Translations under genes and position numbers: made by a program
Notes under the pieces: model-generated
The model's input: only the letters and a program-made list of their open reading frames with translations
What the model was told of the DNA's origin: nothing
Databases searched by the model: none
Source: Butyrivibrio sp.
GTDB taxonomy: Bacteria; Bacillota; Clostridia; Lachnospirales; Lachnospiraceae
NCBI RefSeq assembly: GCF_017635265.1
Contig: NZ_JAGBLU010000069.1
Coordinates: forward strand, 1 to 61,556
Length of the DNA stretch: 61,556 nucleotides
Direction of reading: 5' to 3'
In this document: piece by piece, positions 16,762 through 61,556 of the stretch
Position numbering within the stretch: position 1 is the first letter of the stretch
Layout of the letters: each line of letters begins with the position of its first letter

Positions 16762-17114
16762 GGGTTAGTAAAGGTTTCGACAGGGATTTTGAAGCTGGAG
16801 AAGCTATCCGCAGGATGGTGCGTCAAACCTCAAATTAAAATTAAACGCTAACGATAATTTAGCAATCGCTGCCTAAGTGCAGCCCGTCAGCCTAAGTGCA
16901 CCTACACATTTAGTAACTGGCGTCAAAATTTGTAGGAAACGACATAGCTGAGGCTTCGCAGTTATGGACGTATTATGAAGCTACCGATTAATTACAGTTG
17001 CCTATTACCGTGGTTGAAAGGGAACGGGAATGCAGAATTCCGAAATAACAGGCTATGATAGTAGAAGGACAGGGGATGAATTTTTGGACAGGGGTTCGAC
17101 TCCCCTCTAATCCA
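16762..17114 (+). ncRNA. ssrA: Transfer-messenger RNA (tmRNA)
   Basis: The RNA rescues stalled ribosomes. The 5' end GGGTTAG (16762-16768) pairs with CTAATCC (17107-17113) as acceptor stem; A17114 is the discriminator and CCA is not encoded. The T arm GGGGTTCGACTCCCC is at the 3' end, and the conserved AAAGGTTTCGACAGGG follows the acceptor. The tag reading frame ends at TAA 16874-16876 and encodes a peptide ending NANDNLAIAA (from 16844), with upstream codons KLKL; the exact resume codon is not certain. Pseudoknot-rich sequence fills the middle. It lies directly after smpB. Confidence 0.97.
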
Positions 17115-17121
17115 TTTTTAG

Positions 17122-18026: not shown

Positions 18027-18055
18027 TTGACATCACAAGGTTTTGATGTTATTTT
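18027..18055 (+). promoter_or_regulatory. Promoter of the cobalamin operon
   Basis: A consensus TTGACA (18027-18032), a 17-bp spacer and TATTTT (18050-18055) predict a transcription start near 18062, which coincides with the 5' edge of the riboswitch. Confidence 0.7.
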
Positions 18056-18059
18056 TGTC

Positions 18060-18183
18060 AATGCAAACGGTGTGGTCAGGATGGATTCTCCGGTGCCACT
18101 TAATAGGGAATGAAGTGAGATTCTTCAGCAGTGCCGCTACTGTGATGGGCATAGTGCCCAAGCCAGATACCTGCCTTTGCATT
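18060..18183 (+). ncRNA. Cobalamin (B12) riboswitch
   Basis: The closing stem P1 is AATGCAAA (18060-18067) / TTTGCATT (18176-18183). The B12 box AGCCAGATACCTGCC is at 18161-18175, and conserved core segments GGTGCCACT and GCAGTGCCGCTACTGTGATG are present. No terminator follows. A small hairpin, TTTCTT/AAGAAA (18194-18213), lies directly before the GTGAGG ribosome-binding site of btuF, so control is probably at translation. It should repress the whole uptake and salvage operon when cobalamin is plentiful. Confidence 0.95.
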
Positions 18184-18227
18184 AATCACAAAATTTCTTC
18201 GTGAACAAAGAAAGTGAGGACAAAATT

Positions 18228-37476: not shown

Positions 37477-38859
37477 ATGGATGGTTTTGTTAGAGTTCCT
37501 GTAAGAGAACAGGATGCAAAAGTGCGTGCTACCAATTTTGAGGAAGTATGCCTTGGATATAATAAAGAAGAAGCTGAAAAAGAAGCACTAAGATGCCTTA
37601 ATTGCAAGAACCCGCAGTGTGTTCAGGGGTGTCCTGTGTCAATTGATATTCCGGGATTTATTTCTAAGGTTAAAACCGGGGATGTTGAGGGAGCTTATCA
37701 GACAATCAGTAAGTCCAGCGCTCTTCCTGCTGTCTGTGGGCGTGTTTGTCCTCAGGAAAGTCAGTGTGAAGGCAAGTGTATCAGAGGAATAAAGGGCGAT
37801 GCTGTATCAATCGGAAAACTTGAGAGATATGTTGCTGATACTGCAAGAGAGCTTGGAATAAAGCCGGAAGGAGCAAAAGAAAAGAAAGGTAAAAAGGTTG
37901 CTGTTATCGGATCAGGCCCTTCAGGACTTACATGTGCCGGTGATCTTGCCAAGATGGGATATGATGTAACAATCTTTGAAGCCCTTCACGAGGCAGGTGG
38001 AGTTTTGGTTTATGGTATTCCTGAATTCCGTCTTCCAAAGACTGCCGTTGTTAAGAAAGAAATTGAAAACGTTAAGTCTCTTGGTGTAAAGCTTGAGACT
38101 GACGTTGTTATTGGAAAATCAGTAACAATAGATGAACTTATGGAGAAGGAAGGTTTTGAAGCTGTATTCATCGGTTCAGGAGCTGGACTTCCAAGATTTA
38201 TGAACATCCCGGGTGAGCAGGCAATGGGTGTGTTCTCAGCCAATGAGTTCCTTACAAGAAGCAACCTCATGAAAGCATTTGATGAGAATTCAAGAACACC
38301 TATTATGAGACCTAAAAAATGTGTCGTTGTTGGTGGTGGTAACGTGGCAATGGATGCAGCCAGAACAGCACTTCGTCTCGGAGCAGAGGTTCATGTAGTA
38401 TATCGTCGTGGTGAAGAAGAACTTCCTGCCAGAAAAGAGGAAGTTGGACACGCTAAAGAAGAAGGTATCATTTTTGACCTTCTTACAAATCCTGTTGAAA
38501 TCCATGCTGATGAGAACGGATGGGTAAAGGGTATTACATGTATTCGTATGGAGCTTGGAGAACCTGATGAATCCGGAAGAAGGAGTCCTGTTGAAGTTCC
38601 GGGATCTGAATTTGAAATTGAGTGTGATGCGGTTATCATGTCACTTGGTACATCACCTAATCCGCTTATTTCATCAACAACTCAGGGACTTGAAGTTAAT
38701 CGCAGAAAATGTATTGTTGCACAGGAAGATAATGGTCAGACTTCTAAACCGGGTGTTTTTGCAGGTGGTGATGCTGTAACAGGTGCAGCAACAGTAATAC
38801 TTGCAATGGGTGCAGGTAAAGCCGCAGCCAAGGGCATCGACGAATATCTCTCCAAATAA
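37477..38859 (+). CDS. nfnB: NADH-dependent ferredoxin:NADP+ oxidoreductase, large subunit (NfnB), GltD-like
   Basis: This 460-residue subunit has an N-terminal region with two [4Fe-4S]-type Cys groups (RCLNCKNPQCVQGCP and CGRVCPQESQCEGKC) followed by two nucleotide-binding domains: VAVIGSGPSGLTCAGDLAKMGY for FAD and VVVGGGNVAMDAARTALRLG for NADPH. The C-terminus has GVFAGGDAVTGAATVILAMGAGK. ATG 37477 has AAAGGAG. It could be annotated as glutamate synthase small chain, but the absence of a large GltB subunit and the adjacent NfnA point to the bifurcating Nfn complex. Confidence 0.9.
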   Translation: MDGFVRVPVREQDAKVRATNFEEVCLGYNKEEAEKEALRCLNCKNPQCVQGCPVSIDIPGFISKVKTGDVEGAYQTISKSSALPAVCGRVCPQESQCEGKCIRGIKGDAVSIGKLERYVADTARELGIKPEGAKEKKGKKVAVIGSGPSGLTCAGDLAKMGYDVTIFEALHEAGGVLVYGIPEFRLPKTAVVKKEIENVKSLGVKLETDVVIGKSVTIDELMEKEGFEAVFIGSGAGLPRFMNIPGEQAMGVFSANEFLTRSNLMKAFDENSRTPIMRPKKCVVVGGGNVAMDAARTALRLGAEVHVVYRRGEEELPARKEEVGHAKEEGIIFDLLTNPVEIHADENGWVKGITCIRMELGEPDESGRRSPVEVPGSEFEIECDAVIMSLGTSPNPLISSTTQGLEVNRRKCIVAQEDNGQTSKPGVFAGGDAVTGAATVILAMGAGKAAAKGIDEYLSK

Positions 38860-38884
38860 TATACTTTCTTGCGAGAGTCAAAAT

Positions 38885-39076
38885 AAAATCCATTTTTACC
38901 CATAGCTTTGTCCAGAGCTCGGGTAGTATTCGCAAAGAGACAGTAAATTCAAAATAAGAGCCTCATTTCCTTTCATGCTTATTCAAAACAGAAAATGAGG
39001 CTCTTATTTTTTATTAACAGTCTCTATTGCTCATACTAAATCGCTCTATCCAAAGCTATGGGCAAAAATGGATTTT
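38885..39076. repeat. Palindromic element A with central terminator
   Basis: Outer arms of 26 nt (38885-38910 and 39051-39076) match as inverted repeats with one mismatch. The middle arms of 40 nt on each side still match imperfectly. The centre is a terminator (38951-39014): stem AATAAGAGCCTCATTT / AAATGAGGCTCTTATT, followed by a T-run. The loop carries TTTCATGCTTATTCA (38971-38985), the exact complement of the loop in element B. Confidence 0.75.
38951..39014 (+). terminator. Terminator of nfnAB, centre of palindrome A
   Basis: A 16-bp perfect stem (38953-38968 / 38993-39008) with a 24-nt loop is followed by TTATTTTTTATT. The A-rich left side would let it work in both directions. Confidence 0.88.
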
Positions 39077-39115
39077 TCTATTTACTGCTAAGATAGAACT
39101 ATTTAAAGCAGAATA

Positions 39116-39315
39116 GCAGATGTTGTGGAAGTTTAGAGATAGTTATGTGAACGATTTATTTTGAAATGATGATAAATGGATATAAATAAACCCACAAAAG
39201 ACTTGTGCTCTGAATAAGCATGAAACAAGGCTTTTGTGGGTGTTTTATGTCCAATTTATCACATTGAAAAATACCGGAGTGAACATAACTATCTCTAAAC
39301 TTCCACATCATCTGC
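39116..39315. repeat. Palindromic element B with central hairpin
   Basis: Outer arms of 32 nt (39116-39147 and 39284-39315) are inverted repeats with one mismatch; the next about 40 nt on each side still pair imperfectly. The centre is a hairpin ACCCACAAAAG (39190-39200) / CTTTTGTGGGT (39231-39241), extended by CTTGT/ACAAG. Its loop has TGAATAAGCATGAAA (39211-39225), the reverse complement of the loop in element A. Confidence 0.75.
39190..39246 (+). terminator. Hairpin and possible terminator at the centre of palindrome B
   Basis: An 11-bp stem plus a 5-bp inner stem across one mismatch is followed by GTTTTATG, only a short T-run. Termination is plausible but weaker than at element A. Confidence 0.55.
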
Positions 39316-39349
39316 GGTCGTTTACAAGAAAGTATAGATTCCGAATAGG

Positions 39350-39378
39350 TTGGGAAGATTGGCGTTTTATGTTATAAT
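39350..39378 (+). promoter_or_regulatory. Promoter of the MORN-protein gene
   Basis: TTGGGA (39350-39355), exactly 17 bp, and a perfect TATAAT (39373-39378). The predicted start is about 22 nt before the ATG at 39407, with a TTGGAGA ribosome-binding site between. Confidence 0.65.
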
Positions 39379-61420: not shown

Positions 61421-61556
61421 GTTTGCGCGCCATGGGCGCGCTCTAACGGGTGTAAGTCCCAAACACACCCAGATAGTGGGAAGTGTATAGCCGAACAGCA
61501 AGGGTGTCCATCGTGAGGTGGAATCTGAAGGAAGCTGTAAGCAAATCTCTGGTCCG
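61421..61556 (+). mobile_element. 5' part of a group II intron, cut by the window edge
   Basis: The sequence after the terminator has the hallmarks of domain I of a bacterial group II intron: a perfect hairpin GCGCGCC ATG GGCGCGC at 61425-61441, then CTAACGGGTGTAAGTCCC, ATAGCCGAACAGCAAGGGTGTCCATCGTGAGGTGGAATCTGAAGGAAGCTG and CAAATCTCTGGTCCG (written here as separate recognisable blocks). I recognise these from Firmicutes introns. The precise 5' splice site is unclear, since a GUGYG start is not obvious. The intron-encoded protein and the 3' end lie outside the window. Confidence 0.8.

Follow-up and report, generated by a model that had tools for sequence, protein, structure and literature searches.

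ERIC, Correia, RUP and other palindromic repeats or MITEs are non-coding, intergenic sequences of at least 100 bp that can fold, some of them bounded by short terminal inverted repeats, and the ERIC, Correia and RUP families keep one sequence. Invertons are invertible elements located between short inverted repeats. REPs and REPINs are described, in the portions of the literature cited here, as dispersed and extragenic, with singlets occurring too (PMC3116915; PMC8266576), and REPINs in particular as inverted doublets that are located at gene ends and show compensatory changes (PMC3116915). The main text of a catalogue of GTAG- and CGTC-tagged repeats names no Butyrivibrio, Firmicutes or Clostridia (PMC3733652).

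Here we describe a 477 bp unit (38860-39336) in a 61,556 nt stretch of Butyrivibrio DNA, which was analysed as a whole and is called the window below. The unit contains two palindromes (modules A and B), two 15-mers and an enclosing inverted repeat. This A/B unit resembles REPINs and BIMEs, as far as the cited portions characterize them, in being a dispersed, extragenic, inverted doublet with compensatory stem changes, and in occurring also as single modules. Unlike REPINs, its module has a conserved 20 nt apical loop and a conserved internal loop, and between species the unit can face either way at one and the same site. Compared with ERIC, Correia and RUP as described above, the Butyrivibrio stems are swapped for other complementary stems while the loops remain constant. 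The module shares with bidirectional intrinsic terminators the succession of A-rich tract, stem-loop and T-rich tract, the position after stop codons and the convergent neighboring genes, but the very large size of its conserved loop, the long outer arms and the dispersal as a repeat family set it apart from them, and its termination is predicted. As in invertons, about 475 bp lie between 12 bp inverted repeats and both orientations occur at the same site; in contrast to invertons, the unit occupies many loci per genome, its inversion is so far seen between species only (in assemblies), and neither a recombinase gene was found nor a promoter switch shown for it. Our best reading is a REPIN/BIME-like mobile palindrome of a new and much larger type. 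With a probability of roughly 0.6, the window unit represents a single copy of an interspersed palindromic element of Butyrivibrio, which is non-coding, still mobile or was so recently, and works as a bidirectional terminator. The A/B unit settles just after genes, probably as a mobile two-way transcription stop signal.

One hairpin module in two orientations

Inverted-repeat and motif searches recovered both palindromes and the opposite-strand 15-mers reported in the initial annotation (Table 1). The enclosing inverted repeat, given there as 11 bp, is present and measures 12 bp. Besides the unit, only two smaller inverted repeats were found in the window in a scan for arms of at least 26 nt lying up to 400 nt apart. 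With up to two mismatches allowed, the 15-mer has three sites in the window against 0.48 expected, and three were reached in 0 of 100 shuffles. No ORF of at least 60 aa lies inside the unit, and a 63 aa frame overlaps its left edge. Downstream, a promoter-like site overlaps the leftover arm of the native terminator; relatives have similar letters there by eye, and the promoter scan overall was at chance (4 found, 4.1 expected).

Table 1. Features of the A/B unit and its borders (positions in the window)
Feature	Position	Strand	Remarks
Stop codon of upstream gene	38857-38859	+	unit begins at the adjoining base
Left terminal inverted repeat (A-end), TATACTTTCTTG	38860-38871	+	also in other copies
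Hairpin module A, about 190 nt	38885-39076	+ (motif strand)	inverted-repeat search
Match of covariance model R1 in module A	38904-39062	+	145.1 bits; sequence is part of the R1 training set
Module A outer arms, 34 nt	38885-38918/39043-39076		88% complementary; single mismatch in the outer 26 nt (by eye)
Module A inner arms	38936-38971/38990-39025
Module A central stem, 5′ side, GAGCCTCATTTCC	38958-38970	+	compensated in other copies
Module A conserved apical loop	38971-38990	+
15-mer, exact	38971-38985	+
Module A central stem, 3′ side, then T-rich tract	38991-39013	+	terminator-like
Hairpin module B, about 200 nt	39116-39315	- (motif strand)	inverted-repeat search
Match of covariance model R1 in module B	39133-39293	-	139.4 bits; sequence is part of the R1 training set
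Module B outer arms, 33 nt	39116-39148/39283-39315		97% complementary
Module B inner arms	39170-39206/39225-39261
Module B conserved apical loop	39206-39225	-	module A motif on the opposite strand
15-mer, exact	39211-39225	-
Right terminal inverted repeat (B-end), CAAGAAAGTATA on +	39325-39336	-
Right arm of native terminator, left over, GAATAGGTTGGGAAGATTGGCG	39343-39364	+
Promoter-like site, TTGGGA-17-TATAAT, TG before second hexamer	39350-39378	+	precedes downstream gene

The arms of A and B had been taken as unrelated, which is true of the stem letters and fails at the level of structure, where A corresponds to the same module as the reverse complement of B. A on the plus strand and B on the minus strand are inverted variants of one hairpin module, whose loops are conserved and whose stems are variable yet complementary. 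When the loops are placed in one orientation, A, the reverse complement of B and further variants have a common plan that consists of an outer stem, a conserved internal loop, a middle stem, a central stem and the apical loop. The internal loop reads CTCGG-TATYTTTCG on the 5′ side and CTCAAGATAAATCG or close to it on the 3′ side, the middle stem harbors an invariant GA/TC step, the central stem lies between conserved A-rich and T-rich tracts, and the apical loop is TTTCATGCTTATTCARARCA. It is the inverted arrangement of the modules that makes the A and B loops complementary.

The arms covary in relatives. RNAalifold predicted 42 pairs in a 16-sequence alignment from four genomes (the source genome, P18, AE2015 and P6B7), and 36 of the 42 had changed on both sides. 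The covariation score was 0.752, compared with 0.201 in shuffled alignments (0 of 500 shuffles) and 0.105-0.183 when slid, and paired cells amounted to 89.8%, compared with 58.1% shuffled and 35-44% slid. Among the 18 non-training matches printed whole, 12 carry the 14 nt loop core TTTCATGTTATTCA. The outer arms of distant modules are often locus-specific, yet complementary over long stretches. Three single modules of other species (L182, L187 and L192) have near-perfect, very long arms with predicted folds down to -135 kcal/mol. No Rfam family matched at its gathering score over the window unit or in the loci of 20 relatives; below the cut-off there were generic long-hairpin models only, the best being MIR869 (37.5 bits against a cut-off of 330). 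A full-text literature search, with most subscription papers outside its coverage, found no published description of this element family.

Stem mismatches were counted on the motif strand in 96 of 111 modules, the other 15 being left out for a poor fit to the loop pattern. Transition mismatches comprised 257 G·T and 233 A·C, a rough tally in which the conserved internal-loop mismatches are counted in; the numbers were 156 and 163 in the A/B/C types and 101 and 70 in other species. As G·T and A·C are balanced, pairing is not visibly selected in one RNA strand only, and strand-specific RNA selection was ruled against on this near-balance. The balance agrees with a function at the DNA level or in both strands, or with stems that template switching maintains in the absence of selection. 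Nine pairs of close orthologues were compared, a tenth pair (L178/L185, 61% identical) having been excluded as non-orthologous. Single changes broke 33 base pairs, turned 16 into G·U and 4 into another Watson-Crick pair, and double changes gave 7 Watson-Crick and 2 broken pairs, breakage outweighing compensation among the changed pairs. Stems are thus loosely kept between close orthologues, so that their upkeep would be slow, by selection or by template switching.

Dispersal in the genus and position relative to genes

A 485 bp stretch was found near full length at five places of its own genome including itself (91-100% identity), hence in four further copies, along with many partial matches, several of which are cut by contig ends. 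P18 (G012) has eight near-full copies with 81-94% identity, one of them starting at query position 105, and the A/B unit is repeated in the source genome, P18, AE2015 and Su6. The loop is far more frequent than a control pattern. Its extended 20-mer, with one mismatch allowed, occurs 23 times in the source genome against 0 for a reversed-pattern control, and 25, 20 and 8 times in P18, AE2015 and Su6 against 0, 0 and 1 control hits, respectively. The same pattern was found in 5 of 78 other Butyrivibrio genomes. A scan of an 84,980-species collection returned 45 stretches, of which 36 belong to Butyrivibrio, and no long complementary arms were seen by eye in the other nine.

Of 79 Butyrivibrio genomes, 46 gave a match to covariance model R1 at E ≤ 0.001 and 33 gave none; leaving aside the four genomes that gave training sequences, 42 of 75 had a match. 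There were up to 34 matches per genome, which may include weaker opposite-strand matches of the same palindrome, and the matches listed correspond to 24 distinct module places in the source genome and 25 in P18. Across 250 family genomes, about one per genus, scanned with strict filters and 11 candidates scored per genome, good matches were confined to the two Butyrivibrio, and G248 gave one weak partial match (E 8.6e-5). A loop-pattern search of 397 family genomes yielded 0 hits; it is silent on absence outside the genus because the module carrier G031 was missed as well, and the covariance scan is the better evidence on this point. The viral contigs, phages and plasmids searched contained no match to the element.

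We then compared the insertion sites. The gene orthologous to that at the window site is present in 74 of the 79 genus genomes, and 30 loci were compared, 29 of them from other genomes. None of these 29 has a strong module at the site, L240 showing a weak partial one (E 7e-5). In Su6, AE2015 and P18, the stop codon is followed by the native terminator AATCTTCCC...GGGAAGATT, the left arm of which is missing from the window and only the right arm kept. The unit has replaced the left arm there, and the site has also lost sequence. A link of the window unit to termination, as suggested in the initial annotation, is plausible in that part of the native terminator has given way to the unit. At the window-equivalent site of P18, a different repeat is inserted. 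For two other insertions (L005 and L002), the module was absent from all 16 loci with matching flanks, and other repeat families are present at the L005 site in Su6, AE2015 and P18. Dispersed copies, genus-wide modules and element-free sites in relatives thus support the earlier proposal of a mobile palindromic family that shares a conserved loop. Neither outcome that would have refuted it, a 15-mer at chance frequency or arms without complementarity in relatives, was observed: the loop exceeds its control by far, and the arms covary.

The hairpin modules are located directly 3′ of stop codons, mostly between convergent genes. After removal of repeated contexts, 42 of 71 hairpin-bearing gaps were convergent, compared with 6 in the internal control, which comprised the 105 remaining gaps of these loci (Fisher p 3e-15), and 1 of 71 was divergent compared with 19 of 105 (p 4e-4); genes were called with a simple ORF rule in fetched loci rather than whole genomes. 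The 98 modules flanked by genes on both sides, a tally that counts both modules of a unit, lie in 58 convergent, 36 tandem and 4 divergent gaps. Modules occur in either orientation relative to the preceding gene.

The position after genes, together with the balanced mismatches, the weak short-term constraint on pairs and the long locus-specific arms, is also what would be expected of ordinary terminators whose palindromes stayed perfect solely through template switching during replication, with functionless loops and no mobility. We consider this account unlikely, as it leaves unexplained why one set of apical and internal loops is seen again and again in the genus, and near-identical units at unrelated loci together with empty sites indicate dispersal.

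In all 22 module pairs less than 700 bp apart, which we read as about seven independent arrangements, the motif strand is plus and then minus. The loops are identical, hence fully complementary, in 8 of the 22 pairs, and differ by one or two mismatches in 11 of the 19 that could be compared position by position. Only L139 among the mismatched pairs could represent a double loop change. Among the 94 modules with at least 900 bp of flank on each side, 53 have no partner within 900 bp. These numbers bear on the second proposal of the initial annotation, a structured RNA switch between nfnAB and the downstream MORN/rlmH genes, in which the A and B loops would kiss and control read-through from nfnAB. 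Such a switch would agree with the perfect 15 nt complementarity in the window, with the fully complementary pairs and with the strong covariation. The mismatched pairs and the partnerless modules speak against it as the main function, on which ground it was discarded; the occurrence of modules in both orientations relative to genes, the lack of a clear G·U preference on the motif strand and the 29 other loci without the unit at the window site likewise make it very improbable.

Orientation at orthologous sites

Flank comparison and printed junctions revealed seven flank sites with an A/B unit in at least two of four species. The end facing a given flank was opposite (A versus B) in 12 of 16 species comparisons, as counted by hand: 4 of 6 at site I, 2 of 3 at II, 1 of 1 at W, 2 of 3 at III and 1 of 1 each at IV, V and VI. 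Both flanks match at sites II, III, IV and VI. The A modules found at site II in P18 and Su6 are mutually nearest (0.034; the next at least 0.087), and the orientation is opposite. In-place inversion would be the simplest account of this site, which makes it the best case. At site I, the source-genome copy is of its own type, at a distance of 0.034 to copies in its own genome and 0.20-0.22 to the orthologues, and thus replacement or re-insertion also occurs. By sequence distance alone, sites I, III, IV, V, VI and W could be explained alike by inversion or by replacement with another copy.

In the source genome, the 340 aa gene beside the unit of site W (L009) is the far-side gene of site II in P18 and Su6. 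Sites II and W are linked by this gene, so flanks have also been exchanged at a unit; adding the flank common to the two sites would give one more opposite and one more same comparison. The start of the same 340 aa gene adjoins the unit in L009, L134 and L123 (source genome, Su6 and P18, respectively), and the other flank differs in the source genome, which marks a rearrangement whose breakpoint lies at the unit. An IS end beside the unit in these three loci was ruled out, the 340 aa gene being located there.

A hybrid unit at site VII, left out of the 16 comparisons, faces the same way in AE2015 and Su6, and single modules were judged by eye to have the same orientation in nine orthologous pairs. 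The orientation differences may result from flipping between the terminal repeats, or from re-insertion or replacement at the same site, and sites II, III and VI are concrete loci for checking flipping.

Mobilization and predicted termination

Some traits of the unit are those of a classical MITE, that is, an internally deleted DNA transposon whose transposase acts on the short terminal repeats, with the palindromes as passengers. It has short terminal inverted repeats, is non-coding and is dispersed in near-identical copies. Of the 11 copies in which both ends are present, 5 have TA on either side when the repeat is read as TACTTTCTTG, which is compatible with a TA target duplication, and the second small repeat family described below has similar ends. 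The same 11 copies show no longer or constant duplication (no flanking direct duplication exceeds 3 bp), and in several of them the ends extend as inverted repeats by up to 8 bp. Eight of 30 loci matching the ends were read by eye with 1.5 kb flanks in a genome 88% complete; they were copies, remnants or unrelated sequence, and no full-length relative with a transposase was among them. Moreover, among the flanks printed, other species have modules without these ends, and the module structure is conserved far past the ends. We thus regard the MITE account as rather unlikely. No transposase or recombinase tied to the element was found in the loci examined.

The inverted doublets, gene-end location and compensatory changes would also suit a true REPIN or BIME mobilized by a Y1 (HUH) transposase of the REP-associated kind (RAYT), and by our reading 6 of the 14 genomes searched contain long Y1 frames (220-285 aa), either one or two each. 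However, none of 30 Y1 loci (of 63 Y1 places; 13 genomes) had a module at E < 0.01 within flanks of at most 1.5 kb, shorter near contig ends, and two 16-bit module matches had an E of 0.098; RAYT mobilization was rejected on this lack of linkage. The module-rich genomes G012 and G073 have no long Y1, and G021, which is 83% complete, has no Y1 at all. GTAG precedes the R1 match within 50 nt in only 20 of 108 modules and CGTC in only 7, the exact palindrome foot not being placed in this count, and a conserved tag of either kind is lacking. The modules are 160-200 nt long instead of 20-50 nt. The A/B element is not classed as a REPIN because no linked Y1 and no conserved tag were seen and the module is several times larger, and mobilization by a RAYT seems quite doubtful.

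We favor the mobile bidirectional terminator, and a mechanism can be outlined for it. Several results count against this reading: no linked transposase or recombinase and no flanking direct duplication above 3 bp were seen, the window site lost sequence, the consensus terminator scan was negative, the mismatches are balanced, and broken pairs prevail between close orthologues. Each module is a predicted bidirectional intrinsic terminator or mRNA 3′ end, by way of its central stem and A-rich and T-rich tracts. This role is suggested by the conserved stem and tracts and by the loss of the native terminator in the window. The loop is about 20 nt, which is too large for the consensus terminator scan, and that scan found no terminator over the unit. 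Termination by the unit would make insertion after genes tolerable and leave the native terminator free to decay, as in the window. The conserved loops, for their part, may be the recognition part for a trans-acting factor that binds the hairpin as DNA or RNA; such a factor, which we propose because the loops are conserved, would fix the loop letters and let the stems drift under compensation. The complementarity of the A and B loops would be a by-product of the inverted arrangement, as in REPINs and BIMEs, and not the function.

If this is right, part of the terminators of a major rumen genus come from a dispersing repeat, which replaces native terminators and changes orientation between species. 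The module itself is unusually large for a nucleic-acid motif, covaries strongly and has no Rfam match, and it points to a putative hairpin-specific binding or recombining factor. More speculatively, and as a possibility that we hold only tentatively, the elements could form a new class of structure-encoded mobile DNA, in which long hairpins would be known by their apical and internal loops to a putative trans recombinase, inserted in inverted pairs at gene ends and flipped in place. Butyrivibrio genomes would then harbor a population of two-way terminators able to move and to invert, with stems evolving freely under compensation.

Other repeats and RNAs were met in the same loci. A second small structured repeat family of about 170 bp, GAAATCCGCA..TGCGGATTTCGTGAGAA followed by TCATCGACGAAGTCGAT, was seen in 11 distinct stretches (L044, L047, L011, L024, L069, L079, L051, L038, L287, L228 and L269), 8 of which directly abut an A/B unit end or remnant; its ends are similar to those of the unit (TTCTTG). 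A third, larger structured repeat has GACGGTGAGGATGATGGGAACAGTA and a second GGAACAGTAG (L285, L294, L110, L048, L079, L122 and others). L285, the sole locus scanned, gave a sub-threshold Rfam match only. In Su6 and AE2015, this repeat occupies the site of the source genome's A/B unit at L005. The window also contains a cobalamin riboswitch (18050-18192) and a tmRNA (16762-17117), both above the Rfam gathering score, and the start of a group II intron (RF02001) at its edge (61507-61556).
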